Below the pieces are notes generated by a model. That model saw only the letters and a list, made by a program, of their open reading frames with translations, ran no database searches and was not told the DNA's origin. Made by a program: the position numbers and the translations under genes. Positions 5,298 through 64,000 of a stretch of DNA of 64,000 nt are shown piece after piece; position 1 is the first letter of the stretch; every line of letters begins with the position of its first letter. This DNA is from Daphnia pulex. Its lineage: Eukaryota > Arthropoda > Branchiopoda > Diplostraca > Daphniidae. The stretch lies in the NCBI RefSeq assembly GCF_021134715.1, contig NC_060024.1, positions 12,632,474-12,696,473 on the forward strand, given 5' to 3'.

Positions 5298-5702
5298 CTT
5301 GGAAATCTGAGATATTTGTGATGTTCCGAGACACTATGTGTGTAATCTGTATCCATATGTTCCCATCACATTCGAATCACGTGTTCTTTCATTGTGACCT
5401 TCAAGTTAATTTAATGTGTTCCGATGTTCGTGATCGCTGTTGTTTCATTTTGAATTTTCTTTCATCATTGCGTTCGCTTGCCTCAGGCCCCCTACCATGG
5501 TGCCCCTACCAACTTATTGTTTTTTTTTTTAAAGGTAAAATTTTTGAAATAGGCTACAACATTTGAAATCATATAATCAGGGATTACATCATGGCTACAA
5601 AGTGGCGACATAAAAAAAGTAAACCCCGCTGTCTTTACCAGGGGTATGGAGAGATGAGATGGTTTCCACTGACAGTGTTAAATTTCCCATAAGGGGAGGG
5701 GG
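5298..5702. other. 3' UTR of the tetraspanin and intergenic sequence
   Basis: No coding signal is visible. The stretch ends at the TA target duplication (5703-5704) of the next mobile element. Confidence 0.5.
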
Positions 5703-7017: not shown

Positions 7018-7316
7018 TAGTCGATTCTTTTTTTTTTTTTTTGAAACATTTTTTTTGTGTCGGTTTCGGCGTGCCATAAGGGGGGGCTCCTGTAATTTTA
7101 CTAAAAGGTCTCTCCGACTGTGGTGCCACCAAACGGTTGTGTAAGGGAAACTACATGCTATTTCTTTGAAAACGCATAAACACATTTTCTTTTCGTCTGC
7201 TTTTATTGTTTTCAAGTAGGCTACATTTTACGGAACGCCAAATGACCCCCTAAAATAATAGCACTCGACTAGTGCTATTTATTTTATAAATCACTTGAAT
7301 AATATACACCTGGGTG

Positions 7317-7330
7317 GCGCCATCTAGCGG
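7317..7330 (-). promoter_or_regulatory. CTCF-like motif in left TIR of foldback element
   Basis: GCGCCATCTAGCGG, the same 14-mer as in the neighbouring element although the rest of the two arms differs. It is preceded by GGTG, extending the core to GGTGGCGCCATCTAGCGG. Confidence 0.45.
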
Positions 7331-10206
7331 TTTCAATTGGCGTAACGGAATGTATCGATTTTTTCCAAAATGTACGTATTGATATCGATTGATAATCGTT
7401 TCCACAAGCGAAATGGTGGAAACTATTGGTGGAAAGATTCATGCCTTCATTGAAAGTGTCAAGTATGGCTGTGTCGTGTTATCGTGTATGTTCGTGAATC
7501 GTGATAACGGTGAATCGTGATAACGGTATAACTAACTGATAACTAAATTTACATGAGTTAACATAGTTATGCTTTCCAACTGAAGCACTTGACTTGATCA
7601 AGCAGTTAACTGTCGAGTTTGCCTTGGAGGATGTGACGTCTTTTGCTTCTGCCAGTAAATTATTCATTGCATACATTGTTACACTTGAAACTGATTTGTT
7701 TTTTCAAATTAGGTCATATTACTTCTAATCATTTCAAGCAACATGTTATACCCATCATACTCCACATGAAAGGACTGCTCTTACATCCCACGAAAGACTC
7801 CCCAGTTGGAGTGAACAAAACTTGATTTAGGAAATGATATCCAATCAAGTAACACTATTTATTATTATTTCTAATCATTATTTTCTATCCCAAAATTTAA
7901 TGCCTTGTTTTTTTGTTTTGTTTTTTATTGTTTTTCCCTTTTCGGGACAATGATTCAGTGAGGACATCTCAAAGGAACAGAGATTCAGGACTGGATTATA
8001 TCATGCTCGCGATCAGTATGCTGTCGACCTTGAAGTTACTTATAACAGCTTGGGAGTCGCTGGAACAAAAATAAGAACGAGTACGATTTACGAGAATTCT
8101 CTAGACGGTCTTCACGACATATCTTCATGACCCTGGTAAATAGTAGAAGCTTACAATTTCGAGAGCCTTCAAAGAAAATACGGGCATTTGCTGTGTAAGC
8201 TACCAATTGCAATGCGGAAATATCGCCGACTGCGTCATGAGGTGATGGCAATAACTCAAACAGATGAAAATTGAAATAAAACATTTAGTTTCGTAAATAC
8301 ACATGTATTCATTTGACTCATCCACACAGCATCGCAAAATATCAACGTAAGGAACTTATGATTTAGGTTAAGCTTATGATTTGTATCTTCTAAAACGCAT
8401 CATGGACGAGAAAATGGCCATCCAAACTTGCCCGGGGTGAATGCGCCACGACAATGTTGAGTTATTAAACGACGAAAGTTCCGGGTTGAAAGAATTGACC
8501 GCCAGCATCGAATAAAAACATCCGTAGTAGAGAGCCGGAAGAAACAGAAAACTGGCGGAACATATTTCCAACGTAGAAAGCTGAATGCCGATGGTCCCCC
8601 TTCTTGATTTGACAGAACTATTGGTAACGAGAGCGTTATTATGTTTTGGTCAAATGTATCACTTGTAAACAACAACTCACATCAAAAGAAGGCTTTGAAG
8701 AATGCAATAAGCCTCCAGAAGTTGTTACGAAAAAAACATCTATCGCTTAACACTGCCCAGTGTTATTTCTTTTCGGTCGCCTTGAAACCGCAAGTTTGAT
8801 TCTAATCAAGAAGCGACAGCAATCGCGGACCCGCCATTAGCAAAGTTGGACATCGAAAAGACCTGTTAGAAACAAGACGAAATTTGTGCATTCGTTACGG
8901 TGTGTTATATTTGAATTGGAATACTTTGAATTGAGTTCAGAAGGATGCTGGCTACTTCGTCGACTCGCTCCAGTGCAGTTCGGCCGGGGAGCTATGGAAC
9001 GTTCTTCTGCTGGCATCGAGTGTTGGATGACGCCAGGCTCTATTAACTGACCAGGGCACGCTGTCCATACTATTCTTTCCTAGTTTTCAAGATCATATTG
9101 TTTTATTAGGTAGTTATTGATAATATGATTTAGTTTTCAGTTGCTTACACGCAATTTAGAACGCTGAAAACAAGAAGTCAATATTATTCAGAAAACAGAA
9201 GATCTTACCGAAAAACAAGGCACGCCTTTTTGATTGTCGACCGTAAGTCAAAAGAAAAAGGCCAAGATAGAGTCGAGCTTAAATGACATTGATTACTTGA
9301 CAGGCATAACCTCACGTCGGGCTACGTAGCTGCTGCTTGGATAAAGACGAAAATGATCGTTAATTTCAAACGAACTCTCGAAATTGTAAGCTTCTACTAT
9401 CAGGGTCATGAAGATATGTCGTGAAGACCGTCTAGAGAATTCTCGTAAATCGTACTCGTTCTTATTTTTGTTCCACCGACTCCCAAGCTGTTATAAGTAA
9501 CTTCAAGGTCGAAAGCATACGGATCGCGAGCATGATATAATCCAGTCCTGAATCTCTGTTCCTTTGAGATGTCCTCACTGAATCATTGTCCCGAAAAGGG
9601 AAAAACAATAAAAACAAAACAAAAAAACAAGGCATTAAATTTTAGGGATAGAAAATAATGATTAAAAATAATAATAAATAGTGTTACTTGATTGGATATC
9701 ATTTCCTAAATCGAGTTTTGTTCACTCCAACTGGGGAGTCTTTCGTGGGATGTAAGAGCAGTCCTTTCATGTGGAGGTATGATGGGTATAACATGTTGCT
9801 TGAAATGATTAGAAGTAATATGACCTAATTTGAAAAAACAAATCAGTTTCAAGTGTAACAATGTATGCAATGAATAATTTACTGGCAGAAGCAAAAGACG
9901 TCACATCCTCCAAGGCAAACTCGACAGTTAACTGCTTGATCAAGTCAAGTGCTTCAGTTGGAAAGCATAACTATGTTAACTCATGTAAATTTAGTTATCA
10001 GTTAGTTATACCGTTATCACGATTCACCGTTATCACGATTCACGAACATACACGATAACACGACACAGCCATACTTGACACTTTCAATGAAGGCATGAAT
10101 CTTTCCACCAATAGTTTCCACCATTTCGCTTGTGGAAACGATTATCAATCGATATCAATACGTACATTTTGGAAAAAATCGATACATTCCGTTACGCCAA
10201 TTGAAA

Positions 10207-10220
10207 CCGCTAGATGGCGC
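10207..10220 (+). promoter_or_regulatory. CTCF-like motif in right TIR of foldback element
   Basis: CCGCTAGATGGCGC, mirror image of the left-arm copy. With it, the element carries a divergent pair about 2.9 kb apart. Confidence 0.45.
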
Positions 10221-10308
10221 CACCCAGGTGTATATTATTCAAGTGATTTGTAAAATAAATAGCACTAGTCGAGTGCTATTATTTTAGGGGGTCATTTGGC
10301 GTTCCGTA

Positions 10309-11468
10309 ACATTTTGACTGCTGCCACTATGTCGGATTTGTCCGTTTTTGCAGGATTTTCGAAGTGCTTGCATGACATTTGCAGGACGTAAGATTTTGCA
10401 GGATTTTCGAATTTTTTGTCGGATTTCTGGTAAATTTTGGGGATTTTTTGAAAATCTGGTTATAATTGTATTAGCTAATCAATTGAAATTTGCAGTAGAC
10501 AACAATTGAGACCACTGTGGCGCTGTTGTCTGGTGCTCTGAGCCTCTGACTCTGAGTTTCTGATCTGTGGTCTTGTGTTGAGTATTTCATCATTTCTCTC
10601 CCTGATTCTCTCCTCTAGGCTCTAGTCCTCTAGTTTGACTGTTTGAATTTGAGACTTGTTTGAGTCACGTGGCCATTCTTTATGTGCTCTTAACTAATGG
10701 CAGCGTTGGAAACTCAACATTTTAATTTAACACTTTCATCACCGTCTCCCGTCGTTAGCTTTTAACTGTCGGTCAACAGTATCAAAATAATCTACGGGCC
10801 GAGTGAAGTGGCGACGAGTGCTGGTGCTGTAATAATAGTATTATTATAGTTCCCGTGTCCTATTATTATTACAGCTGATTGCACCCAGCACACGTGCTGA
10901 TGATGCAAATAGAAACTAGGTTTGTCTTGTTCTCGTCTTTCCTTCGTTAAATTCATTCCCATTCACCTTAAAACGGGATCTTTCTCTCCACCAAAAAATG
11001 GAAATGGACATAGGAGGCATTTGGTGAATTTCTAAACACTCGAATTCAGTGGTCACATAAATTGACAGACAATTTCTTCCCGGTTCGTTTGGTTGTTTAC
11101 ACGAAAACTGGAGCGGGAAAACACGCGGGAGGTAGTAACATTTACATTTTGAAAATGGACGTGAACAAAGGATATTATATGCTCATTTTTTTTTCAATTA
11201 TTTTGTTGCGAGTATTATTTGCAATTTGCATTTTGTTGTCAGTAAATTTTGGTTCGTTTCTTAATTTTGCGCTCGACAATTTTTTAAATTTGGCAATAGT
11301 GCATCTCGTAAAAATAATGCAACCGATTTTTCGAGCCCAGAGGGCAAAGGACGACAGAGAATAATATTAAAAATATTTAGAAACTTTTTTCGTTGACTGT
11401 TTTGGGTGCCATTTTGTATTTTGAGGTCTTTCAGTTAGTCGATTTAGTTATTAACTATTTTCTTTAAT
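10309..11468. other. Upstream region of LRR gene 1, part of a segmental duplication
   Basis: There is no gene at 10309-10790, only a short internal echo of the phrase GCAGGATTTTCGAA. From about 10797 the sequence is a diverged copy of the region upstream of LRR gene 3. Bases 10797-10873 match 22560-22634, which is exon 3 and the preceding intron of CUB gene A, and the text then jumps to sequence matching 23219 onwards. So the duplicated block once included CUB-gene sequence here, and about 585 bp was deleted or never copied. A 100-codon open frame at 11062-11364 is not kept in the sister copy and is not called. Confidence 0.6.
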
Positions 11469-13289
11469 ATGCCTCAGCCGAAATGGTACGGAAAATCTCT
11501 TTCGGCATTGTGCATGGAAAATATCGTCGATAACATGGAGAAATGGACGGCATTGCGTAGCTCGGAGGATGTTTCCTGTCATTTTTTTCATCTGCGTAAG
11601 TGTCTATATAAAATAGTTGGTATTATCTATTACTACTGTTATTTTATTATGCCATTTTGACTACACACAGCTTCACATTGTCTGGAGTACATGACTAAAT
11701 GTCTCTTGAAAGACTATTACTGGATAACACAGGACATGTTTGATTTACTTTTGAGCCCACACATGAAAGTTCTGGATTTATCACAATTTTATCTGGGCAC
11801 TGGACGTGTTGCCAACAGAAATCTTTGCATCTTTCGTCTGGCATCTGACAGATGTTTGGTATATAGACCAATAGTTAATTCTGCATTATAATAGTAGTAA
11901 ATTTATATGTAACTCTTTGCAATTACAGCAACTCACTACACTGAAGATTCATGATGGCTGGGGTTTTTTTTTCGATGGAAATAGAAATTTTGAAGTAGAA
12001 GAGGCTTTTGCTTCTATTTTGCAGCGTTTTGAACACTTGCAAATTCTTGATTTATCTTCCACAATTTATGGTGCATGTTGCATGCTCAAACTTGGATCAA
12101 CTTGTAAACCAAAAATAAAGTAGGTTCTACTCTACTTTAAGCAAATAAATTTATTGTACATTTTATATTTTTTCCCCTAGGGAGTTGCTAGTTGATTGCT
12201 GCCCTGGTGTAACTGATTCTGTAGTTGAAGTTTGTTGTAACGGTCAAAGTTCCCTTCAGAAATTATCAGTTAGGAGAACGGAAGTGACTCATTCCGGAAT
12301 TCGATTTGCTATCGAACATTTACCAGAATTGAAAGAATTAATTTGCGACAATGAGTCTGATATCCTCAAAGCTTTTCGTAGAATTCGTACAGAAACAAGA
12401 GAATCAAACAAATATTCTTTGTACCACTGGTTTTGTACTCAGCCTCAGCCTTATAAGAAAGGCAGCGTTTCATTGATGGTTGACATGTGTCCGTCGATCG
12501 TCTATCTTTCCTTGAGTGTTAACGACGAAGGATTTACGGATGAGGAGTTATTAGGTGAGAAAAATCTGAAGTAATGGTAGTCATATGTGTAGGGAATCTA
12601 AATGCAATTTTATTTTAGGTTTTCGAGAACTTAAACAACTAAAACTTTTCAGAATTGGGAAATCCTTCATGCCGTTAGTCTCTATTCGTGGCGGAGTAAT
12701 TCCTCTTCTACAAGCTCGTGGCCTTACACTTGAATCATTATATTTATCGATGGGAGTAACGAGTGAAGAAGTCTACCTCATCGTCGAGAGCTGCCCGAAA
12801 ATTCGCCATTTGCAACTTGTTATAAAAAGTACCGATCTGGAAACTCCCGAACCTGTTGATGACCGCGTCCACTCTTCTCTTTGTTCCCCAAAGGAAGTAA
12901 TTCCGTTAAGGATGCTGGAAGAAATCTCTCTGTCTTCTCTGGCTTCTTATTTTCCTCCATTCGCTATTTCACGCAAATTGTTGCTATTGTTTTTGTCTTC
13001 CCCTACTCTTACAGAGATTTCCATAAAAAATTGTTCTACTCTTGATGACCAGATAATTAAGGAAGCTTGCGCTAGAAATAGTTTCAAGTATTTGACCAAG
13101 TTATGGTTGTTCGGTTGTTCTAATGTGAGTCAGAAAGGAATCGATTTCTTTCTGAACGAAACGAATCCTTTAGACGACATTTGGATACACAACTGTGGAA
13201 ATGTGAACTTTGATCGTTTGGAAATGATGATAGAAGAGAAGCACTGGAATTTGGGGATCTGTAGTTCGTCACCATCATCGTCTGATTAG
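11469..13289 (+). CDS. Leucine-rich-repeat protein, paralogue 1 (516 aa)
   Basis: Exons 11469-11595, 11671-11858, 11929-12119, 12181-12554 and 12619-13289 join in consistent phase. The product starts MPQPKWYGKSLSALCMENIV and then shows irregular leucine-rich units (MKVLDLSQF, HLQILDLSS, SSLQKLSV, LPELKELICD, LESLYLSMGV, LTEISIKNCSTL, LTKLWLFGCSNVSQKGIDF). The cysteine-type units near the C-terminus resemble F-box/LRR proteins, but I see no clear F-box, so a ubiquitin-ligase adaptor role is only a possibility. There is no signal peptide or membrane segment, so it is probably intracellular. It is one of three paralogues in the window and appears intact. Confidence 0.8.
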
Positions 13290-14434
13290 TATTTACATCG
13301 ACTTACATTGCGGAATGAAACAGCCAACAGACGGGTGCTCTCGACGTATTGTGCCACGCTCCTTTATTTGCCAGTTTCCTTTCGGGTCTTTTGGTGTAAT
13401 ATTTTTTTTCTTGTAAGGGTGAATAAAGTTAAGTTAGACTAGTAAGTAGTAACTAATTTTGTATTCTGAATGATTTCGGCCTTCTATTAATTTCACTGTT
13501 TTGAAAAATTTTGAAACGTGTGACGATTTCATGTCAAATGCTCCTATTGACAACAGATTTCGAATGCCCCAAAAACCTTTGCTTAATAAATTTGTCAGAG
13601 TTTTACAAATTAACCTTGCCTCCATTATCTTTTGAAGTGAATAGTTTGATAACTTCTGATTCATTTGGAATCCTACCATTGTTGGAATTAAAACCATTGA
13701 ATGCCATTTAGCCGGACTACCTAGGCATTACTGTATTAGAAACGAATTTTGTTTCCTAACAAAGTGTTTTTAGGCGCGAATTTTAGGTTTAGTGGAAGGG
13801 AAAGACTAATAAGTTTTCGATAATCCCTATCGAAAACTTATTAGTCTTTCCTCGGCTCGATGTGATGGGTACCAATTTTACTACCGAGTACACTAAGAAA
13901 AACAGCCAGAAGGAAAATGACCGACAAGAAGCATTCTACTTTGGCTAGAGGTTTAAAACATATTTTAGAGTCCATTGGGTCACAATTCGTCCACAAGAAA
14001 AGAAAAGTCATGGAAATGCGATTGACCAACACCTGGGCGACCTAGCTGGCTCCTTAGTCAGTTAGTCCTTACTTTAATCGCTTTAACTGTGAGACTAGAC
14101 ACGAGAAGGAATGGATATTTATTATTTTTATTATTTGCTGATGTATTTGCAATTTACTTTTTTCTTTTTTGTGAGGAAATTTAGCTCGTTTCTTAATTTT
14201 AAATTTTTAAGTCGACTCACTCGAGTTATTTAAAAAAAATCTGGCAATGGTGCATCGCGTTCAATGCAATTATTCTGTTCGCGCCTTTTGTCAGAGTCAG
14301 ACAGAAGAAGGGACTAGGGAGAGAAAACTGCGAAATATTTAGAAAATTCTTTAGTGTGATCGTTGATGTTCGTCGTGTACGTGTCGTGGTTTTCACTGAA
14401 CGTGTTCTCTTAACCATTATCTTCAAAAATCAAC
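13290..14434. other. Spacer between LRR genes 1 and 2
   Basis: The 3' UTR of LRR gene 1, then AT-rich sequence with chance open frames. It contains one striking perfect hairpin (separate entry). The last 300 bp is a diverged copy of the LRR gene 1 upstream region. Confidence 0.5.
13799..13851. repeat. Perfect 24-bp hairpin with 5-nt loop
   Basis: Arm 13799-13822 (starting GGAAAGACTAATAAG) is exactly complementary to 13828-13851, around the loop ATCCC. It lies in the spacer between two LRR genes. It could be a small-RNA precursor, a cruciform or a collapsed palindromic element. Confidence 0.8.
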
Positions 14435-16237
14435 ATGCCTCAGCCGAAATGGTACCACAAATCTCTGGCAGAATTGTGTATGGACAGTATCGTCGATAAC
14501 ATGGAGAAATGGACGGCATTGCGTAGTTCGGAGCACGTTTTCTGTCATTTTTATTTACTGCGTGAGTGTCTATGGAATACTTGGTTATTAGTTGCTTACT
14601 GTTACAATTATTTTATTACGGCATTTTGACTACATACAGCTTCACATTGTCTGGAGTACATGACTAAATGTCTCTTGAAAGACCACTCGATAACAGAGGA
14701 CATGTTTGATTTACTTTTTAAAAGCCCACACATGAAAGTTCTGGATTTATCACAACTGGGCACTGGACGTGATGCAGAAAGAAATCTTCGCATCGTTCGT
14801 CTGGCATCTGACAGATGTTTGGTATATAGACCAATAGTTAATTCTGCATTATAATAGTAGTAAATTTATGTGTAACTCTTTGCAATTACAGCAACTCACT
14901 ACACTGAAGATTCATGATGGCTGGGGTTTTTTATTCGATGGAAAGAGTAATTTTGAAGTAGAAGAGGCTTTTGCTTCTATTTTGCAGCGTTTTGAACACT
15001 TGCAAATTCTCGATTTATCTTCCACAATTTATGGTGCATGTTGCATGCTCAAACTTGGATCAACTTGTAACCCAAAAATAAGGTAGGTTCTACTCTACTT
15101 TAATCAAATAAATTTATTGTACATTTTATGTTTTTTCCCCTAGGGAGTTGCTAGTTAATCGCTGCCCTGGTGTAACTGATTCTGTAGTTGAAGTTTGTTG
15201 TAATGGTCAAAGTTCCCTTCACAAATTATCACTTAATGGAACGGAAGTGACTCATTCCGGAATTCGATTTGCTATCGAACATTTACCAGAGCTGAAAGAA
15301 TTAAATTGCGACAATGAGTCTGATATCCTCAAAGCTTTTCGTAGAATTCGTGAAGAAACCAGAGAATCAAAAAAATATTCTTTGACCAAGTGGATGTGTA
15401 CTCCGCCAGACGAAGTCTCCTATAAAAAAGGCAGCGTTTCATTGATGGTTGACTTGTGTCCGTCGCTTGTTGATGTTTTCATACCCGTAAACGACGAAGG
15501 ATTTACGAATGAGGAGTTATTAGGTGAGAAAAATCTGAAGTAATGGTATTCGTATTTGTAGAAAAACTAAACGCAATTTTATTTCAAGTTTTCGACAACT
15601 TCAAAAACTAAAAAATCTCGAAATTGATAAGGGGTCGTCAGTCTCTATTCGTGGCGGAGTAATTCCTCTTCTACAAGCTCGTGGCCATACACTTGAAACG
15701 TTATTTTTATCGATACAAGTAACGAGTGAAGAAGTCTTTCTAATCATCGAGAGCTGCCCGAACATTCGCCGTTTGTTCCTTTTTTTAGAAAGTACCGATC
15801 TGGAAACTCCCGAACCTGTGGTAGATGACCGCGTCCACTCTTCTCTTTGTTCCCCAAAGGAAGTAATTCCGTTAAGGATGCTGGAAGAAATCTCTCTGTT
15901 TACTTATTTTTCACGATTCGCTATTTCACGCAAACTCTTACTTTTGCTTTTATCTTCCCCTACTCTTACAAAGATAGCCATATACGATTGTTTCACTCTT
16001 GATGACAAGATCATTGAGGAAGCTTGCGCTAAAAACAGTTTCAAGTATTTGACCAAGTTATGGTTGTACGGTTGTTCTAATGTGAGCCAGAAAGGCATCG
16101 ATTTCTTCTTGAACGAAGCGAATCCTTTGTCCGACATTTATTTAAGAAACTGTGGAAATGTGAACCCTGAGCGTATGAAAACCATGGCTCAAGAGAAGCA
16201 TTGGAATTCGGTAAAAATAACTGTTGTAGATTATTAG
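14435..16237 (+). pseudogene. Leucine-rich-repeat paralogue 2, last-exon acceptor shifted
   Basis: Exons 14435-14561, 14640-14821, 14892-15082 and 15144-15523 match LRR gene 1 in length class and phase. The fifth exon should begin at 15588 after an AG. Paralogues 1 and 3 read TTAG/G and TCAG/G there, but this copy reads TTTCAAG, so the usable AG (15587-15588) is one base further on. Splicing at it puts exon 5 out of frame and meets TAA within nine codons, removing about 215 C-terminal residues. The exon 5 frame itself is open to 16237 (LTKLWLYGCSNVSQKGIDFF), so the damage is recent or the allele uses another acceptor. It could still make a truncated protein. Confidence 0.65.
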
Positions 16238-16527
16238 AGGTTATCGCAGTGAGATGGACGGACAAAAATGCGATCCAATATTTCTTTTAAAAGTTTCGTT
16301 TTCCTGTTCGAACACTTTTTCTTTATGTTTATTTGCTTTTAAAAGAAAAAGGAATATTGTTTTTGTCAAAATTCTTTTTATCTTTGGTACTCAAGAAATA
16401 TTAAAGAAATTCAATAACATCTATGTTTTCATACTTTATTCCACAAATTTTTATAGGTTTCAATTCAGGGAATGGCTACACTCATTCCGATAAGCTAAAC
16501 AAATCTTATTTTGTTTTTGTATTTTAT

Positions 16528-19500
16528 TTAGGACATGATTTTCATTAATTTGTTGTAAGTTCGCTTAAATGTCTGTTGTAATTTGGTCAAACCAGATTTC
16601 TCTTCCTTCAAGCTGATGTTAAACATATCGGCGTCGTTCTCAGCTGATCCAACTTTGACAGTTCCACTGGGCTCTGTTGTTGCTGGACTGGTGAAGGTAT
16701 TCGTTGCTACTGGTGTTTCGTTCGATGCTGGAAAGGTAGGAAAAGAATTGAACTTATTATGATTCAAAATGGTCGTTTGTGGCTGTGTCGAATATCTGAT
16801 GAGGTTAGAAGTAACTTCAGGAGTAGTTGGTGGATCGGTTGTTGGCAGATCGGTCGTCATTGGCCTGCCAGTTGTCGGAATATATTTAGCTGTTGTCCTA
16901 AGTAGTAGAGAAGTGATTGCAGTGTTAAGTATTTCCCTGTTTATGGTATATTGCGGTTTGGGTCTTTTGAATAGTAATGTTGATTGTAGGGAGATGTTGA
17001 CTTTAATGATGAAGCAGTAGAATTTTTACGAAGGTAAGCAGATTTCATAGCCAGCCACGGATTTTTAGTCGTCATTTCTGGGACTTGTTTCACATTATCG
17101 GCTTGGTTATTATGTGGGTAAACTTCAAACGATGATGCCGAATAATGGTCGTCTGTTTGCTCAGGAGATTTCAGAATAACCCATGGAATGTCTTGATAGT
17201 CGTTGAAATAAGTTGTGGGTGGGCGAACGGTCGTCGATGATGGCCGCTGACTTGTGTTTTCTGTTGACGAAGGGAAATAGGTGACTGAATCCGACGAATA
17301 TGATGGATGGCTGGATTCTGGGGATTCCGAGATGAGCCAAGGTTCGTCGTTTTCATGATTGTTGTCATTAAAAACAGCTGGTTGTTTAGTTGGTGCTGCG
17401 CTAGTTGAAGTAGTTTTTGGTACTTTTGTAACGGGAATTTGATGTTTGAGACCATGGCTGGGCTTGATAATTATTCTAGGCCCTTCTCCGGCTTCAAAAT
17501 CTTCGATTTGTCGATTTATCCATCGTCGACTGAATCTGACGTTTTCCTTTCTGACTCCAATCATCTTGTCATTCACACATTCACCTGATTTTTTTAAATA
17601 TTTACTTTTGTATTGTTCACCCAATTTTGAAAGTTGTATTACCTTGAAGGGTAAATGACAAGCCCTCGGGGTTTCCGTCGCCGATTCCTGTATTATCCAT
17701 AATAATGGTCACATCTTTTGGTTGGTGGTTGTCGACGTACCACTGGAAGGGCGGAACGTCGCCAATGCGCCCGCAAATTCTACATTTCGCAAGTACAGAT
17801 TTAACGGGATTGTTATTAGATCAATTTCAGAGTGTACAGGCGGAATATTGGGCATACTTTGCTTCCTTCATGAATGGATAAATACGGTAAAATCCTCTAG
17901 CGCATCCGACCACATCCGGCAATCGACTGCGACCGTCCACCCTCAACGTGATTCGACCCAGACTGCAATTCTTACTCGTTACCTGGTTACCATTTCAGAT
18001 TTCAATTTAATGCGCCAATTACCGTAACGCTTTATTGAGTTGTATAATACCTTGACAATCCAGCGGCAAACTAAAGGATAAGCGCGTTCTTCCGGAAATT
18101 GTGACGATTCGATCGGTGTGAGTCGATCAAAGGACAAGGGGACATTGACGGTACCTCCGCAGGTATCTATTACGTTATTTTCGTGATTTATTAAAACATG
18201 GTATAATCTCAGTCAATAGTTTTATACCTGCAGAATTTCGATCCCAACTGTCAGCGGGTGGATTGGTGGTTGTTTGGCCAACTAAATGGCGGCTATCCGT
18301 GTCCGGAAGAAAATCAGATGTTGCTGGATGGATGAGATTTTGTGACAATCGCAGAATAGTTTGTGGTAGATCGTCATTCATCGCAGTGTACTCTGGATCG
18401 AATTCGGTTATGGACGATTGACTTTCCGTCTCAATCGACTTGTTTCTCAAAAAAGGTGTTTTTCCTAAAATAGAATACGAGATTTAATTGTCACTAATAA
18501 TTTGTAAATTGTTCGAGCGAGCTTTAGCTCGCGATGAGCAATTTGGATTGTTGGGGGAATGGAGTGAAGACATTGACTGTGTGCGACCTCTATATTTCAG
18601 CTGCTTCTCAGCAAACAAAAGAACAACAAAAACGGGGGATAGGTGAGAGATGGCGCTCAGGTGGGCGGACCTTTCCCTTAGACACATCAGAATTGGAAGC
18701 AAAAACAAACTGTGGATCTGGCTTAACGGAAAATGTGTAAGGTGATCCATGGTTCAAATGGCCTATTTGTTGTTGTTGTTCTGATCGCCTTTATTGGCGG
18801 GATTGGGTGAGCCACGGTCGAAATTGGATCTGCGGCTATCATTGTTGTATCTAGCAAAAAGATAGAAGGAAAGAGGAATTAGTGGGCCGTCAATAATCGG
18901 ATGCTGCACCTAATTCAAGTTAAATAACATAATGATAACGGGAATGAAGTGGGCGGGATGGGTGGTTAGAAGACAGTCAATGTCTTCACTCCATTCCCCC
19001 AACAATCCAAATTGCTCATCGCGAGCTAAAGCTCGCTCGAACAATTTACAAATTGTCGGTAAATTCGTTCGACATTGACTGTGTCTTTAAAGCAAGATAT
19101 AATCAGATATAATAAGATATAAGATAAGACCCCCTGATGGTCGACAGTTACCAACGCCTGAAAATTGGAGCTCGTGGGAGCCCTGCTGGACTGTGTAACA
19201 TGGATGCGCCACCAAATCGGCATTTCGTCTAAAAAAGGCGTCAATACTCTTTCATACGAATAGTTGTCGGAGGGTTCCTTCCCACCGTGCTGCAGCTCTT
19301 GCTGGAACGAAAATTAACAAGGAAAAGCTAATACCTCCTTGACGCCAGACAACAGAGAGTTGTGGTTCCGTTGCTTACACCAACTGCTCCAAGCGACCTC
19401 AGCGGACTGGTATGCAGGGTGCGTATTCGATCGAATTGCTCCCAGTATGAGCTCGATAATTTCCTTCGGAAAGGTTCGTTCTTCCAGACAACTCCGGAGA

Positions 19501-22893: not shown

Positions 22894-23841
22894 TTTGTTT
22901 GTCTGCAATGTAGTTGAAAACAAATGAAATATAACATGTCAATTGGCAATAATAAATCGATCGAGATTTGATTTCGCACCTTTCCATTTGGGATTCCTGG
23001 ACGCGATTGAGAGTTGCATCACTGCATGACATATTACACGGCACTAAAATGAAAATCACCAACAGATAATCGATATATTTTATCGTCAGAGACGAATTTG
23101 TCGAAATGTTTCAGAGACAAAAGTCGAACGGACACTGGACAAATTCACGAATGGAATGGGACCTATTCTTCCTCTTTCCCCACACTCTCTACATATTGAC
23201 AATAAGCTACAACATTCACAGCTGATTGCACACAGCACACGTGCTGATGATGCAAATAGAAACTAGGTTTGTCTTGTTCTCGTCTTTGCTTCGTTAAATT
23301 CATTCCCATTCACCTTAAAACGGCTAAACGGGATCTTTCTCTCCACCAAAAAATGTAAATGGACATAGGAGGCATTTGGTGAATTTCTAAACACTCGAAT
23401 TCAGTGGCGGAGTGGCCACATAAATTGACAGACGATTTCTTCCCGGTTCGTTTGGTTGTTTACGCGAAAAACTGGAGCATGAAAACACGCGGGAGGTAGT
23501 AGGCCTAACATTTACATTTTGAAAATGGACGTGAACAAAGGATATTATATGCTCATTTTTTTTCAATTATTTCGTTGAGAATATTATTTGCAATTTGCAT
23601 TTTGCATTTTGTTGTCAGCGAATTTTGGTTCGTTTCTTAATTTTGCGCTCGACAATTTTTTAAATTTGGCAATAGTGCATCTCGTAAAAATAATGCAACC
23701 GATTTTTCTGGCTGAGTGCCTGAGTTTTTAGGGCAAAGGGCGACAGAGAAAAATAATATTTAGACATTTTTTTCGTTGACTGTTTTGAGTGCCATTTTGT
23801 AGTTTTGAGGTCTTTCAGATTAGTTAACTGTTTTCTCTAAT
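22894..23841. other. Shared upstream region between CUB gene A and LRR gene 3 (divergent)
   Basis: CUB gene A (minus) and LRR gene 3 (plus) start about 950 bp apart head to head. From 23219 onward the text is nearly the same as 10868 onward before LRR gene 1. Copy-specific indels break any shared open frame, so it looks like promoter and 5' UTR rather than coding. Confidence 0.55.
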
Positions 23842-25627
23842 ATGCCTCAGCCGAAATGGTACGGAAAATCTCTTTCGGCATTGTGTATGGACAGTATCGT
23901 CGTTAACATGGAGAAATGGACGGCATCGCGTAGTTCAGTGCACGTTTCCAGCCTCTTTTACCTTCTGCGTGAGTGTCTTTTCTTTGGAATAATTGTGTGC
24001 TTTTATTTGATTATGCCATTTTGACTATGCACACAGCTTCACATTGTCTGGAGTACATGACTCTTGAATGGGTCAAAAGAAACCACTGGGTTACAAAGGA
24101 GATGTTTGAATTGCTCCTGAACCCACATTTGAAAATTCTGGATTTATCTAAACTCGGAAAAGGTCATGATATGCATATCACTGACAGGGTTTGCATCGTG
24201 CGTTTAGCATCGGTCAGATGTTCGGTAAAAATTGATTCGTTATTTTTATATAGAAGTGAATTAATGAACAACTTTTTCAATTACAGCAACTCACTACACT
24301 GAAGATTAGTTTTTTCACAATAAATCAAGTAGAAAATACTTTTACTCCCAATTTGCAGCTTTTCGAACACCTGCAGATCCTTGAGTTATCTGGCACATTT
24401 GATGCTGGTGCTAGTTGCATGATCAATCTTGGATTAACTGATAAACCAAAACTGAGGTAGGTCTAGGGTCTACTTTAACTAAGTAAATCAACTTTCTTAA
24501 TGTCTTATATTTTTTTTTTTTCAAGGGAATTGCGAATTTATTTGTGCCCTGGCGTGACCGATTCTGTAATGCAAGTTTTCTGCAACGGTCAAAGTTCCCT
24601 TCAGAAATTATCAGTTCATGAAACGCAAGTGACTCATATCGGAATTCGATTTGCTATCGAACATTTACCAGAGCTGAAAGAATTAAATTGCGACAATAAG
24701 TCTGATATCCTCAAAGCTTTTCGTAGAATTCGTAAAGAAACCAGAGAATCAAAAAAATATTCTTTGACCAAGTGCTGGCTTATGTGGCCTCCGCCAGACG
24801 AAGTCTCCTATAAGAAAGGCAGCGTTTCATTGATGGTCGACATGTGTCCGTCGCTTGTTGATGTTTTTATACATCTAAACGACAAAGGATTTACGGATGA
24901 GGAGTTATTAGGTGAGAAAAATCTGAAATAATAAGGTATTCGCACGTGTAGGGAAACTAAGCGCAATTTTATTTCAGGTTTTCGAAAACTTAAACAAATA
25001 CGAAATCTTGGAATTCGGGTATCCTTCCTACCGTCAATCATCTCTATTCGTGGCGGAGTAATTCCTCTTCTACAAGCTCATGGTCTTACACTTGAACAAT
25101 TATATTTAACAGTGGAAGTAACAAGTGCAGAAGTCTATCTCATCATCCAATGCTGCCCGAATATTCACCGTTTGCTACTTTTTTTTGAAAGTACCAATCT
25201 GGAAACTCCCGAACCGGTGGTAGATGATGGCGTCCACTCTTCTCTTTGTTCCCTAAAGGAAGTATTTCCGTTAAAGATGCTGGAAAACATCCGTCTGTCT
25301 TCTTATTTTTCTCGATTCGCTATTTCACGCAAATTGTTGCTATTGCTTTTGTCTTCCCCTGCTCTTACAGCGGTTTCCATAGAAAAGTGTTTTACTCTTG
25401 ATGACCAGATCATCGAGGAAGCTTGCGCTAGAAACAGTTTCAAGTATTTGACCAAGTTAAAGTTTCACGGTTGTTCTAATGTGAGCCAGAAAGGAATCGA
25501 TTTTTTTCTGAACGAAGCGAATCCTTTGGACGAAATTTCTTTAAATGACTGTGGAAATGTGAACCCTGAGCGTATGACAACCATGGCTCAAGAGAAGCAT
25601 TGGAATTCGGTAAAAATAACTGTTTAA
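23842..25627 (+). CDS. Leucine-rich-repeat protein, paralogue 3 (506 aa)
   Basis: Exons 23842-23968, 24037-24224, 24287-24456, 24526-24911 and 24978-25627 join in phase. It starts MPQPKWYGKSLSALCMDSIV. Repeat units include LKILDLSKLG, LQILELSGTF, SLQKLSVHET, LPELKELNCDN, LTLEQLYLTVEV and LTKLKFHGCSNVSQKGIDFF. Exon 3 is 21 nt shorter than in paralogues 1 and 2 and is the most diverged part. The exon 5 acceptor is normal (TTTCAG/G), unlike paralogue 2. Substitutions are scattered, so this copy looks functional. Role unknown, as for paralogue 1. Confidence 0.8.
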
Positions 25628-32401: not shown

Positions 32402-32409
32402 ATTTTAGA
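32402..32409. repeat. Target-site duplication, left
   Basis: ATTTTAGA, repeated at 35625-35632 right after the element's other end. Confidence 0.75.
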
Positions 32410-32675
32410 CAACCCATGTCTGACTGCACAAGTGCAATATATCGCACAAGTCGTGCGCCACTTTTCCTCTCGCGCTTCCCTATTACGCTAGTGTCGTCTG
32501 GTGGGGAACGGCGACAACTCGTTTTCTGTCAACACCATTCTGCATGCAAAAGGACTAATGTACTGCTCATGTAATCTAAATTGTTTTTTTATTATTAATC
32601 TATGCATTTTAAAGGTACTACATCTTCTAAATCCCTAAAAACTCAGTGAAGATGAGACTAAGGTTACAAGAATTA

Positions 32676-33248
32676 CACCATTCCCCCCTAAGTCTCAGGA
32701 ATACATAGACATTTGCAGCAGTGTGTATGTGGTAAGCAAAAAGAATTGTTGGTGTACAGCATAAATACATTTTCCCTTTATAACCAGGAAAGATTATTAT
32801 ACCCCATGCTTCAATTGAATGGACTACCAGCATATTTTCTGAATAAATGGAGTGGTAGCATATACTAAATTCAAAGATGCAACACGAAGAAGAAGCTGTG
32901 CATTTGTGGAATTTTGTGATTCCGAGTCAGCTGCCAAAGCTGTCACAGTAAGTGTTCTTTACATATTTAGGCAGTAACAATTAATACCTAAACGGAGACA
33001 ATGCTGAGAGCTCATTCAAAAATTTTATAGGAATATGCAGCCTCCAGCGAGTATCATGTATTGACTGAAGATCCAGGGCAGTCATGTAGTATTCAGGTGT
33101 TTGATGCAGAGTGTGTAAACTACTTTCTAATTGAACAATTGAAAGTTGTTCACTTTACCTTTTTTATTTATTTTAATTTGATTTTGTTCTTACAGGAGCC
33201 AAGACGAAAAGGGGGACAAGAAGAAAACGAGCACAAAACTAGACACGG
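32676..33248 (+). pseudogene. LARP7-like RRM gene fragment, left arm
   Basis: Pieces of a split coding sequence survive: FPPKSQEYIDICSSVYV before a GT donor, then IIIPHASIEWTTSIFSE, then RRRSCAFVEFCDSESAAKAV (an RRM RNP1-like strand and following helix) up to a donor near 32950, then EYAASSEYHVL and a basic EPRRKGGQEENEHKTRH. The order and spacing resemble the first RRM of La-related protein 7. In-frame stops (after IFSE) break it. Identification rests on pattern recognition. Confidence 0.5.
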
Positions 33249-33469
33249 AGGAAGCAGGCAGATCATTTCCAAGTTCCGTGTGTTGTTGAATGCTCAAGAA
33301 ACATTTTAAATATTATGTGATAAATTCAAATTTTTAAACACGCACCAATGCTTGTAGTGTACCCGTATTAAACTTCAATAAAAAATATGTGATAGTTCAA
33401 AAAATGAGAATTTATTAGTTTGTTCACTATCAACAAAAGATCGACTCTTTATATTTCAAATTAGGATTT

Positions 33470-34600
33470 CGCGTTGATAATGGAGTGTATTAATGCAGTA
33501 TTTTCCCTATTTCATAGGTGGAAGTTTGCATAGCATGACTAGCGTCAGTTTAAACATCTTCCGGCATGAATTAAAGGTAGATGCATATAAAATGCAGTGT
33601 TTTTGAACTCATATTCGGGTTCCGCGTGAAAATCTGAGTAAGAACATTCATCTGATTACTATTGGCGGACGCCTGCATTAGCATGATTTGCGTCAACGTG
33701 AAAAATCGTTCGACGTGAATTACAGGCACACGCATACAAGAAAGAGTTTTTTTGAACTCATATTCGGATTCCGCGTAAAAAGTTTAGCTTAATTAATTGT
33801 TTTCGTTATTTTTGCGTTATCCTGTGCAGCACGATGTGCGTCAGCGTGAAAAATCGTTCGGCGTGAATTACAGGTACACGCATATAAAATAGCCAGTTTT
33901 TCAAATCATTTTTGAATTCAGCGTAAAAAGTTGAGTCTACTTCATGATTTTCATCATTTTTAGAGGCAGCCTGCAAGAGTTATTCGTTTTTGACGAATTT
34001 TTTCATAGAAACAAAACGACGCAGTTCTCTTTAATTATCTAGGCGACCTTTTTTCGAAATTTTTTTTTGTCGCAAACGACAAATTCCCCCCTTAAATAAT
34101 GAAATTAACACCTGATACTCAAATTTAAACGCTGAATCCATATATGAAGTCAAATACCGACTTTTTTAAATGCATCTACCGTTATTTCACGCCGAACGGT
34201 TTCTCACGCTCACGTAAAGCACGCTATACACTACAGGCTTCCGCCAATAATAATAAAGTGATAGTTTTTACGCAACTTTCAACGTTGAATGCGAATATGA
34301 GTTCAAAAAAACTCTATATTATATGCATCTACCCGTAATTCACGCCGGATGGTTTTTCACGCCGACGCTCATCATGCTATGCAGGATAACGCAAAAATAA
34401 CGAAAAATAAGAATAATGATCAACTTTTGACGCGGAATCCGAATATGAGTTAAAAAAACTATATCTTATATGCATTAACCCCCGTAATTCACGCCGGACG
34501 GTTTCTCACGCCGACGCTCGATCTATGCAGACTTCCTAAAATAATGGAAAAAATTACACTACACTCAATTTTTCACGCGGAATCCAAATTTGAAATAAAA
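33470..34600. repeat. Inverted clusters of units of about 135 bp in the element core
   Basis: On the left, three units recur about every 135 bp, each with a phrase like CGTGAATTACAGGTACACGC followed by ACTCATATTCGGATTCCGCG (near 33585, 33716, 33860). On the right the same phrases appear reversed (near 34190, 34290, 34440). The arms meet about 34,050. Identity is lower than in the outer arms. Confidence 0.7.
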
Positions 34601-34800
34601 AACCGTCTAACTAACTAGTGAATTCTCATTATTTATAATTTATAGCTTTTATTGTTGTCTTTTATTATGTATTACATGGATACACTACAGGCATGTTAAG
34701 TGTCTTAACGAATTTGTATTTCTCATTGTAGCATTTAGCATTTTTCTTGAGCATGCCGCACCGTGGAACTACAGTGTCTAGGGGTTCTTCCAGGGTTCTT

Positions 34801-35371
34801 CCGTGTCTAGTTTTGTGCTCGTTTTCTTCTTGTCCCCCTTTTCGTCTTGGCTCCTGTAAGAACAAAATCAAATTAAAATAAATAAAAAAGGTAAAGTGAA
34901 CAACTTTCAATTGTTCAATTAGAAAGTAGTTTACACACTCTGCATCAAACACCTGAATACTACATGACTGCCCTGGATCTTCAGTCAATACATGATACTC
35001 GCTGGAGGCTGCATATTCCTATAAAATTTTTGAATGAGCTCTCAGCATTGTCTCCGTTTAGGTATTAATTGTTACTGCCTAAATATGTAAAGAACACTTA
35101 CTGTGACAGCTTTGGCAGCTGACTCGGAATCACAAAATTCCACAAATGCACAGCTTCTTCTTCGTGTTGCATCTGCTACCACTCCATATATTCAGAAAAT
35201 ATGCTGGTAGTCCATTCAATTGAAGCATGGGGTATAATAATCTTTCCTGGTTATAAAGGGAAAATGTATTTATGCTGTACACCAACAATTCTTTTTGCTT
35301 ACCACATACACACTGCTGCAAATGTCTATGTATTCCTGAGACTTAGGGGGGAATGGTGTAATTCTTGTAAC
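34801..35371 (-). pseudogene. LARP7-like RRM gene fragment, right arm (mirror copy)
   Basis: Mirror of 32676-33248 with the same pieces and the same breaks. Near 35180 it lacks the small extra segment present on the left. Beyond EHKTRHG the two copies diverge (this one reads RTLEEPLDTVVPRCG). Confidence 0.5.
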
Positions 35372-35624
35372 CTTAGTCTCATCTTCACTGAGTTTTTAGG
35401 GATTTAGAAGATGTAGTACCTTTAAAATGCATAGATTAATAATAAAAAAACAATTTAGATTACATGAGCAGTACATTAGTCCTTTTGCATGCAGAATGGT
35501 GTTGACAGAAAACGAGTTGTCGCCGTTCCCCACCAGACGACACTAGCGTAATAGGGAAGCGCGAGAGGAAAAGTGGCGCACGACTTGTGCGATATATTGC
35601 ACTTGTGCAGTCAGACATGGGTTG

Positions 35625-35632
35625 ATTTTAGA
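35625..35632. repeat. Target-site duplication, right
   Basis: ATTTTAGA, equal to 32402-32409. Confidence 0.75.
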
Positions 35633-58929: not shown

Positions 58930-61900
58930 TTAGAAAGTGTAGTTTTTTAAAGTTTTAATAGTTTTACAAAAATGGTTCAAAAAAAAACCATCCAGGAACT
59001 CCGAAAAACACTTTTATGAGATTGAAGTTGCTATTATATTTATTTCACTTGTGAAAACCATTTCTTTATTACAGGATGTGTTAATCGATGTCCAATACAC
59101 CATTTCAAGTGTATTGAATCAATAAATTCATAAAGCAATTCATGAAGATATAGTTTTAGAAAAATGGTTCATAGAAAATCTTCCAGGAACTGTAAAAAAA
59201 CACTTTTATAAGATACAAATTTCTATAATATTTATTTCACTTGTTTTAACCATTTCTTTATTACAGTATGTGTTAATCGATGTCCAATACATCATTTCAA
59301 GTGTATTGAATCAATAAATTCATAAAGCAAATCATTAAGAAATAGTTTTTAAAAATGGTTCAAAGAAAATCTTCCAGGAACTGCGAAAAAACACTTTTAT
59401 GAGATTGAAGTTGCTATAATATTTATTTCACTAATTAAAACCATTTCTTTATTACAGGATGTGTTAAACGATGTCCAATACACCATTTCAAATGTATTGA
59501 ATCAATGAATTCATGAAGCAATTCATGAAGAAATAGTTTTAGAAAAATGGTTCATAGAAAATCTTCCAGGAACTGCGAAGAAACACTTTCATGAGATTGA
59601 AGTTTCTATAATATTTATTTCACTTATTAAACCATTTCTTTATGACAGGATGTGTTAATCGATGTCCAATACACCATTTCAAGTGTATTGAATCAATAAA
59701 TTCATAAAGCAATTCATGAAGAAATAGTTTTAGAAAAATGGTTCATAGAAAATCTTCCAGGATCTGCGAAAAAACCTTTTTATTAGATTGAAGTTTTTAA
59801 AATATTTATTTTACTTGTTAAAACCATTTCTTTATTACAGGATGTGTTAATCGATGTCCAATACACCATTTTAAGTGTATTGAATTAATAAATTCATAAA
59901 GCAAATCATAAAGAAATAGTTTTAAAAAATGGTTCAAAGAAAATCTTCCAGGAACTGCGAAAAAACAATTTTATGAGATTGAAGTTTCTATAATATTTAT
60001 TTCACTTGTTAAAACCATTTCTTTATTACAGGATGTGTTAATCGATGTCCAATAAACCATTTCAAGTGTATTGAATCAATAAATTCATAAAGCAATTCAT
60101 GAAGAAATAGTTTTAGAAAAATGGTTCATAGAAATTTTTCCAGGATCTGCACAAACACTTTTATGATATTGAAGTTTCTATAATATTTTTTTCACTTGTT
60201 AAAAGCATTTCTTTATTACAGGATGTGTGAATCGATGTCCAATACACCATTTCAAGTGTATTGAATCAATAAATTCATAAAGCAATTCATGAAGAAATAG
60301 TTTTAGAAAAATGGTTCATAGAAAATCTTCCAGGATCTGCAAACAAACACTTTTATGATATTGAAGTTTCTATAATATTTATTTCACTTGTTAAAACCAT
60401 TTCTTTATTACAGGATGTGTTAATCGATGTCCAATAAACCATTTCAAGTGTATTGAATCAATAAATTAATAAAGCAATTCATGAAGAAATAGTTTTAGAA
60501 AAATGGTTGATAGAAAATCTTCCAGGAACTGCGAAAAAACACTTTTATGATATTGAAGTTTCTATAATATTTATTTCACTTGTTAAAACCATTTATTTAT
60601 TACAGGATGTGTGAATCGATGTCCAATACACCATTTCAAGTGTATTGAATAAATAAATTCATAAAGCAATTCATGAAGAAATAGTTTTAGAAAAATGGTT
60701 CATAGAAAATCTTCCAGGATCTGCGAACAAACACTTTCATGATATTGAAGTTTCTATAATATTTATTTCACTTGTTAAAACCATTTCTTTATTACAGGAT
60801 GTGTTAATCGATGTCCAATACACCATTTCAAGTGTATTGAATCAATAAATTCATAAAGCAATTCATGAAGAAATAGTTTTTGAAAAATGGTTCGTAGAAA
60901 ATCTTCCAGGAACTGCGAAAAAACTTTTTATGAGATTGAAGTTTCTTAAATATTTATTTTACTTGTTAAAACCATTTCTTTATGACAGGATGTGTTAATC
61001 GATGTCCAATACACCATTTCAAGTGTATTGAATCAATAAATTCATAAAGCAATTCATGAAGAAATAGTTTTAGAAAAATGGTTCATAGAAAATTTTCCAG
61101 GATATGCGAACAAACACTTTTATGATATTGAAGTTTCTATAATATTTATTTCACTTGTGAAAACCATTTCTTTATTACAGGATGTGTGAATCGATGTCCA
61201 ATACACAATTTCAAGTGTATTGAATCAATAAATTCATAAAGCAATTCATGAAGAAATAGTTTTAGAAAAATGGTTCATAGAAAATCTTCCAGGATCTGCG
61301 AACAAACACTTTCATGATATTGAAGTTTCTATAATATTTATTTCACTTGTTAAAACCATTTCTTCATTACAGGATGTGTGAATCGATGTCCAATACACAA
61401 TTTCAAGTGTATTGAATCAATAAATTCATAAAGCAATTCATGAAGAAATATTTTTTGAAAAATGGTTCATAGAAAATATTCCAGGATCTGCGAACAAACA
61501 CTTTTATGATATTGAAGTTTCTATAATATTTATTTCACTTGTTAAAACCATTTCTTTATTACAGGATGTGTGAATCGATGTCCAATACACCATTTCAAGT
61601 GTATTGAATCAATAAATTCATAAAGCAATTCATGACAAAATAGTTTTAGAAAAATGGTTCATAGAAAATCTTCCAGGATCTGCGAACAAACACTTTTATG
61701 ATATTGAAGTTTCTATAATATTTATTTCACTTGTTAAAACCATTTCTTTATTACAGGATGTGTGAATCGATGTCCAATACACCATTTCAAGTGTATTGAA
61801 TCAATAAATTAATAAAGCAATTCATGAAGAAATCGTTTTTGAAAAATGGTTCAAAGAAAATCTTCCAGGAACTGCGAAAAAACCTTTTTATGAGATTGAA

Positions 61901-62052
61901 GTTTCTAAAATATTTATTTTACTTGTTAAAACCATTTCATTATGACAGGATGTGCTAAAGATGTCCAATACACCATTTCAAGTGTATTGAATCAATAAAT
62001 TCATAAAGCAATTCATGAAGAAATAGTTAAAAAAAATGGTTCAAAGAAAATC
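58930..62052. repeat. Satellite A, monomer about 191 bp, about 16 copies
   Basis: Successive copies of the phrase GATGTGTTAATCGATGTCCA start at 59075, 59267, 59458, 59649, 59841 and 60032, spacing 191-192 bp. Each unit contains AAATGGTTCATAGAAAATC, CACTTTTATGA and TTTCTTTATTACAG. The first unit is degenerate, later units are closer to one another, and units with GTGTGAATCG form a subfamily in the right half. No protein-coding potential. Confidence 0.95.
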
Positions 62053-64000
62053 GTTGCATTGGTGTTGAAGAAATACCAAAAAAACGTCCCAAACATCTAG
62101 CCTGAAATATTTCCAAATTGTGGTGGAGACCTTTCCTATCACATGTTTTAGTATTTTTCGTGTTGAATCAGTATAGAATACACTATTTTACAATAATTAT
62201 AAGAAGAAACTCAGAACATGTGACAGGTTGCATTGGTGTTGAAGAAATACCAAAAAAAAACGTCCCAAACATCTAGCCTGAAATATTTCCAAAACGTGGT
62301 GGAGACCTTTCCTATCACATGTTTTAGTATTTTTCGTGTTGAATCAGTATAGAATACACTATTTTACAATAATTATAAGAAGAAACTCAAAACATGTGAC
62401 AGGTTGCATTGGTGTTGAAGAAATTCCAAAAAAAAAACGTCCCAAACATCTAGCCTGAAATATTTCCAAAACGTGGTGGAGACCTTTCCTATCACATGTT
62501 TTAGTATTTTTCATGTTGAATCAGTATAGAATACTCTATTTTACAATAATTATAAGAAGAAACTCGGAACATGTGAGAGGTTGCATTGGTGTTGAAGAAA
62601 TACCAAAAAAAACGCCTCAAACATCTAGCCTGAAATATTTCCAAAACGTGGTGGAGACCTTTCCTATCACATGTTTTAGTATTTTTCGTGTTGAATCAGT
62701 ATAGAATACTCTATTTTACAATAATTATAATAAGAAACTCAGAACATGTGACAGGTTGCATTGGTGTTGAAGAAATACCAAAAAAACGTCCCAAACATCT
62801 AGCCTGAAATATTTCCAAAACGTGGTGGAGGACTTTCCTATCACATGTTTTAGTATTTTTCGTGTTGAATCAGTATAGAATACTCTATTTTATAATAATT
62901 ATAAGAAGAAACTCAGAACATGTGACAAGTTGCATTGGTGTTGAAGAAATACCAAAAAAACGTCCCAAACATCTAGCCTGAAATGTTTCCAAAACGTGGT
63001 GGAGACCTTTCCTATCACATGTTTTAGTATTTTTCGTGTTGAATCAGTATAGAATACTCTATTTTACAATAATTATAAGAAGAAACTCAGAACATGTGAC
63101 AAGTTGCATTGGTGTTGAAGAAATACCAAAAAAAAACGTCCCAAACATCTAGCCTGATATATTTCCAAATCGTGGTGGAGACCTTTCCTATCACATGTTT
63201 TAGTATTTTTCGTGTTGAATCAGTATAGAATACTGTATTTTACAATAATTATAAGAAGAAACTCAGAACATGTGACAGGTTGCATTGGTGTTGAAGAAAT
63301 ACCAAAAAAAACGTCCCAAACATCTAGCCTGAAATATTTCCAAAACGTGGTGGAGACCTTTCCTATCACATGTTTTGGTATTTTTCATGTTGAATCAGTG
63401 TAGAATACTCTATTTTACAATAATTATAAGAAGAAACTCAGAACATGTGACAGGTTGCATTGGTGTTGAAGAAATACAAAAAAAAAACGTCCCAAACATC
63501 TAGCCTGAAATATTTCCAAATCGTGGTGGAGACCTTTCCTATCACATGTTTTAGTATTTTTCGTGTTGAATCAGTATAGAATACTCTATTTTACAATAAT
63601 TATAAGAAGAAACTCAGAACATGTGACAAGTTGCATTGGTGTTGAAGAAATACCAAAAAAAACGTACCAAACATCTAGCCTGAAATATTTCCAAAACGTG
63701 GTGGAGACCTTTCCTATCACATGTTTTAGTATTTTTCGTGTTGAATCAGTAAAGAATACTCTATTTTACAAAAATTATAAGAAGAAACTCAGAACATGTG
63801 ACAGGTTGCATTGGTGTTGAAGAAATACCAAAAAAACGTCCCAAACATCTGCCTGAAATATTTCCAAATCGTGGTGGAGACCTTTCCTATCACATGTTTT
63901 AGTATTTTTCGTGTTGAATCAGTATAGAATACTCTATTTTACAATAATTATAAGAAGAAAATCAGAACATGTGACAAGTTGCATTGGTGTTGAAGAAATA
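62053..64000. repeat. Satellite B, monomer about 175 bp, about 11 copies, runs off the window
   Basis: The phrase AAACATCTAGCCTGAAATAT recurs at spacings of 174-177 bp from about 62090 on. Length differences come mostly from an A-run of six to nine. Units are very alike, so the array is young or homogenised. It follows satellite A with no spacer. Confidence 0.95.

Follow-up and report, generated by a model that had tools for sequence, protein, structure and literature searches.

A palindromic insertion with mirrored LARP7-like gene pieces in Daphnia pulex, a probable foldback derivative of a KDZ transposon

Here we describe a palindromic insertion of 3,215 bp that carries pieces of a LARP7-like gene, mirrored in its two arms, in the genome of Daphnia pulex. 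It lies in a stretch of 64,000 nucleotides, hereafter the window (NC_060024.1, positions 12,632,474 to 12,696,473; C8:12632474-12696473 in our numbering), and the genome searched for related sequences comprises 133.19 Mb in 13 contigs (C1-C13). The insertion with its mirrored pieces is confirmed; from comparison of its ends, it is very probably a non-autonomous foldback derivative of a Kyakuja-Dileera-Zisupton (KDZ) DNA transposon with mirrored gene capture. This proposed transposon group is an addition to a preliminary description of the same DNA, which taken as a whole is partly supported.

The insertion and its captured gene piece

The element occupies window positions 32410-35624, starts with CAACCCATGTC, ends with GACATGGGTTG and is flanked on both sides by ATTTTAGA, an exact 8-bp target-site duplication (left copy 32402-32409, right copy 35625-35632). 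Its left arm (32410-33253, plus strand) and right arm (34796-35624, minus strand) were delimited by alignment and mirror profile. A repeat search pairs 32410-32863 with 35171-35624 (454 nt) and 32875-33253 with 34796-35174 (379 nt), each pair 100% complementary; aligned globally, end to end, the arms (838 and 823 bp) share 822 identities, with one mismatch and a single 15-bp gap. In 100-bp steps the mirror identity is 100% for the first 800 bp, except for 84% where the gap falls, and drops to about 60-76% in the centre (33255-34795), where inverted arrays with a unit of about 149 bp lie at 33552-33961 and 34116-34603. Inverted arms thus make up most of the element and repeat arrays occupy its centre, which is the layout of a foldback transposon. 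No open reading frame of at least 150 aa was found within it.

The preliminary description had proposed an inserted palindromic element of 3.2 kb with near-identical arms, and not an inversion; both points hold. A chromosomal inversion is ruled out by the 8-bp duplications, by sister copies elsewhere in the genome and by private changes in the window arms. The same three observations lead us to reject a plain assembly artefact, as far as sequence can tell. Long reads are known to yield foldback artefacts (PMC12870357, in the portion available), and assembly polishing could have exaggerated the arm identity, which weighs against taking that identity at face value. Even so, an origin of the palindrome, or of its perfect arm identity, in assembly or polishing seems extremely unlikely—the sister copies are about 2% different from the window element, and two further elements with the same ends carry exact 8-bp repeats of their own, AATTTACG (C8) and GGACGAAC (C9).

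Both arms carry a piece of a gene found on C6. Element positions 158-845 (window 32567-33254, plus strand, in the left arm) match C6 at 84% in the genome search, gaps counted; the piece in the right arm (34796-35467, minus strand) is without 15 bp present in the left. Because frames of the parent gene match the Pfam families La (4.7e-10) and RRM_1 (6.3e-10), we call it LARP7-like; a third piece of the gene, read as xRRM, has no Pfam match. With the C6 gene region as query, the genome gives 10 matches: two are the C6 gene copies (covering query 1-2331 and 281-2331), and the others are the arms in the window, on C5 and on C1, and two small relics. The relic on C2 (82% over about 95 bp) adjoins sequence matching the inner part of the element, while the relic on C4 (44 bp, 93%) starts at the same parent position as the window piece and lies beside an end of the second family introduced below. 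The RRM (LARP7-like) fragment with splice-type borders that had been read in both arms is therefore borne out, and a parent gene with La and RRM exists. A 3,480-bp block of C6 that holds most of this gene is present in two copies, 100% identical and about 12 kb apart (L011 4600-8079, L012 6407-9886); this is either a recent duplication or an assembly error.

Parts of four LARP7-like exons are present in both arms together with the intervening introns, with AG/GT-type borders in the parent; in the left arm the exon pieces lie on the plus strand at about 32615-32731, 32788-32947, 33031-33114 and 33196-33254, their borders placed by eye. Since the introns were kept, capture took place at the DNA level, and a retrocopy is ruled out. 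Divergence of the left arm from the parent is 9.2% at exon sites and 7.2% at intron sites, and the arm's exons contain frame-breaking gaps; with exons at least as diverged as introns, there is no sign of selection on the captured protein. A host gene piece within a terminal inverted repeat (TIR) element, with its parent elsewhere (on C6), is the arrangement known as Pack-TIR.

Element ends, sister copies and transposon group

A 151-bp end of the element has 12 genome matches at seven places. Both ends are present at five of these—the window, C5, C1, C8:11283613-11287241 and C9:2872011-2881700—and single ends only at C12 and C8:1074498. Sister elements, which the preliminary description had expected, are thus present, and the possibility of a solitary element is excluded. 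The copies on C5 and C1 are identical to each other, and that at C8:11283613-11287241 is another palindrome. Exact 8-bp repeats flank three of the five two-ended elements (those in the window, on C8 and on C9); at the other two, on C5 and C1, the flanks are mirrored and show no direct repeat.

The 9.69 kb element on C9 ties these ends to a transposase. Between its ends lie matches to KDZ (PF18758, 1.1e-12) and CxC3 (PF18804, 3.6e-27), and the window element's outer 142 bp (element 1-142, window 32410-32551, plus strand) are 95% identical to its end; the right end (35483-35624, minus strand) is likewise of KDZ type. Our Pfam scan took in seven frames, four of them from the C9 element as pieces of its transposase, and in those four no other transposase family, Mutator included, reached its cut-off. 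Genome-wide, the profiles give 20 matches for PF18758 (18 over cut-off) and 49 for PF18804. Two palindromes (94% and 92%) lie within the C9 element itself, along with a 267-bp unit that is present three times (element positions 179-783, 4613-5435 and 7202-8002).

A second family of ends, beginning CAACACAG (CAAC ends), bounds another palindrome on C9, with the 7-bp direct repeat CGTCTCG, and also an element at C7 5454036-5459069 that has a CxC3 match and inverted array pieces inside. For the arrays, 43 matches collapse to 27 places; a PF18758 match is found no more than 6 kb from three of the 27 (expected 0.05) and a second-family end no more than 6 kb from five (expected 0.03), although some of the places are duplicates of each other and hence not independent. 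All 20 PF18758 matches entered this count, as did 11 of the 15 second-family matches; the C9 palindrome's partner end was left out, along with three matches on C8 that are confined to the inner part of the query.

These features are consistent with published descriptions of the group, so far as the portions available go: duplications are of 8 bp for Zisupton elements and of 7 bp for two Kyakuja families, whose termini are CA..TG (PMC12730594); Zisupton appears in a transposon table for Daphnia (PMC8594854); and nematode Zisupton genes are multi-exon (PMC9297572), with which the split frames of the C9 element agree. Having no transposase of its own, the window element could only be a non-autonomous KDZ member, for which elements like that on C9 presumably supply the transposase in trans.

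Several points weigh against this assignment. The scan covered pieces of the C9 transposase, and two of the four C9 frames gave matches only under the cut-offs; the window element lacks a transposase; and the arrays of its centre were not found in the C9 element. Alternatively, the ends might be those of a different superfamily, Mutator, hAT or P, with KDZ genes lying inside one such element on C9 by chance. A target-site duplication of 8 bp would also suit hAT, P and some Mutator elements. Most foldbacks seem to be Mutator, with exceptions (PMC4079207, portion available). We consider this alternative very unlikely, however: on C9 a single element has both ends, is flanked by an exact 8-bp repeat and contains KDZ as well as CxC3; a CxC3 match is likewise present in the C7 element bounded by the second family of ends; and no other transposase exceeded its cut-off in the scanned C9 frames.

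Homogenised arms and mirrored layers

The arms change together within each copy. Those on C5 are identical to each other over 843 bp, yet between the window and C5 there are 17 substitutions in the left arms (821 identities) and 15 in the right arms (808 identities); one base in the left window arm and the 15-bp loss in the right are private to the window, being absent from the C5 arms. In both copies mirror identity is lost at about the same inner point, and the C8 palindrome is 100% mirrored across 17 successive 100-bp steps. Because arms are near-identical within a copy but about 2% apart between copies, they appear to have been homogenised. This pattern would be explained by one mirrored structure in the ancestor, homogenised afterwards in each lineage; independent mirroring in each lineage is a less simple alternative. 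The ancestor would have acquired the LARP7 piece when repair close to a terminal repeat switched templates, after which the inverted arms would repair from each other and keep the outer arms identical.

Such arm-to-arm repair could also carry the mirror image outward beyond the element ends, and the C5/C1 copy suggests a case. C5 and C1 share a block of 4,173 bp, 100% identical; its borders are CCTGTTAT (C5) and TATCTGTG (C1), and it therefore looks like a transposon of its own. The KDZ-ended element sits inside it, flanked on both sides by the same transposon end in mirror orientation, so that the mirror runs about 440 bp past the ends. In its look this flanking transposon may be Mutator-like; two of its frames have no Pfam match. 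Compared with a copy of it on C9, the left flank differs at three of 463 bases and the right at 14, 11 of which fall in the outermost 21. The C9 copy continues beyond the insertion point and has no inverted partner in the roughly 7 kb read.

We infer that arm-to-arm repair ran outward past the element end in the C5/C1 copy, and this outward growth is the most unusual part of the finding. The main alternative is that the other transposon has long inverted ends by nature and that the mirrored flank is one of these, with no outward growth—a reading that we think unlikely but by no means negligible. The outer 60 bases of the right flank, which match a different place on C8 at 98%, weigh against outward growth: the outermost 21 differ from the left and match an end there, as a real right end would, and the C9 copy, known over about 7 kb only, has not yielded a right end. 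On the other hand, that stretch holds no inverted partner, and among 10 genome matches to the first 1,963 bases of the C9 copy the mirrored pair occurs at C5 and C1 only. At the KDZ-type ends, moreover, the two sides mirror each other base for base, a symmetry that an independent insertion would not produce.

The preliminary description had proposed capture followed by arm copying. Arm copying is supported by the co-changing arms and by the C5/C1 mirror past the ends, while its place after the first capture is conjectural.

Mirrored layers of other kinds occur elsewhere. The core of the C8 palindrome is 90% identical to the C9 palindrome and about 95% to palindromes on C2, and also matches places on C5 and C7 (70-74%). 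The outer 461 bp on C2 are found in both arms there and once, unmirrored, at C9:4524975 (92%). Mirrored outer layers thus differ among related cores. No Pfam match was obtained for a frame in the outer layer on C2 or for one in the C8 core. The C2 palindromes (C2:10997770-11000659 and C2:11191770-11194659; L029-L032) are identical over the 4,988 bp read and lie exactly 194,000 bp apart; they reflect either duplication or an assembly error. As a tentative and rather doubtful extension, KDZ-associated foldback cores may be growing palindromes, which copy arm-adjacent sequence across, add mirrored layers such as a LARP7 piece, the end of another transposon or other fragments, gain new terminal repeats and jump again, each step making a hairpin against a parent.

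Surroundings, predicted hairpin RNA and known systems

On one side of the element lies a minus-strand frame with a Pfam SH3 match, whose first ATG (near 32172) is 238 bp from the element end, in line with the distance of about 240 bp to PIX given previously. The PIX-like name is tentative, taken from the order of SH3 followed by the start of RhoGEF; the exon taken for that start has no Pfam match. A zinc carboxypeptidase gene (Pfam Peptidase_M14) runs on the plus strand from 36221 onward on the other side, so the element lies between two divergent genes. The window also contains a second near-perfect inverted repeat (7225-8165 and 9375-10312; about 940 bp, 98.5%, spacer about 1.2 kb), with no similarity to the other loci compared and no clear duplication at its ends. 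A tandem array of a 192-bp unit (58957-62052, 16.2 copies, 93% matches) is followed directly by a 176-bp unit (62053-62500, 2.6 copies within the stretch scanned). Long direct repeats (82-83%) lie at 10868-13251, 14432-16734 and 23214-25607, and their frames look like a repeated leucine-rich gene family.

A read-through transcript of the element would fold into an approximately 820-bp stem, in which several stretches of at least 21 nt match LARP7 exons exactly. The left arm and the parent share ten runs of at least 21 nt, and exact exonic matches number 21 for 21-mers, 15 for 22-mers and nine for 23-mers; cleavage of LARP7 RNA would thus be possible if the hairpin were transcribed, and silencing of LARP7 by element-derived double-stranded RNA (dsRNA) is possible. 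A stronger claim is that this is a working hairpin-RNA locus—transcribed, cut by Dicer, its small interfering RNAs lowering LARP7, and the capture kept for that role. The near-perfect stem and the exact exonic matches would suit it, as would the gene-silencing hairpin RNAs known in Drosophila (PMC10317233, portion available). Nevertheless, we regard it as quite unlikely: the arm is about 9% apart from the parent exons and is interrupted by gaps that break the frame, nothing suggests that matching is maintained, and arm homogenisation alone would keep the stem perfect.

The following comparisons draw on the available portions of the sources cited. The window element resembles KDZ/Zisupton elements in having the inverted ends of a KDZ plus CxC3 element, CA...TG termini and 8-bp duplications as in Zisupton (PMC12730594); unlike them, it has no transposase, is nearly all palindrome and has a host gene piece in both arms. 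With the foldbacks FB, Tetris, Tm1 and Galileo it shares long inverted arms and internal tandem repeats, the latter described for Tetris (PMC4079207), and for Galileo the recruitment of new terminal sequence and conversion between long ends have been proposed (PMC3573991). Foldbacks seem mostly Mutator (PMC4079207), and Galileo is placed in the P group (PMC3573991), whereas the ends here appear to belong to KDZ; a mirrored host gene piece was not found for Galileo or Tetris in those portions (PMC3573991, PMC4079207). Animal Pack-TIR elements such as Ssk-FB4 are likewise TIR transposons with a host gene piece, in several copies and with a proposed template-switching origin (PMC8277862), but here the piece is mirrored in both arms; the available main text of that source does not mention KDZ, Zisupton or Daphnia. 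Drosophila hairpin-RNA loci are also inverted gene duplicates able to pair into long dsRNA (PMC10317233), while the window locus is a mobile element. Among the titles listed in the open-licence literature, there is no KDZ foldback with gene capture.

With a relative that bears a transposase, a parent gene that is known and mirrored layers of differing identity, a KDZ foldback would offer a concrete case for how palindrome arms form, are kept up and grow. It points, too, to a testable way in which transposons may come to make hairpin RNAs against the genes of their host.
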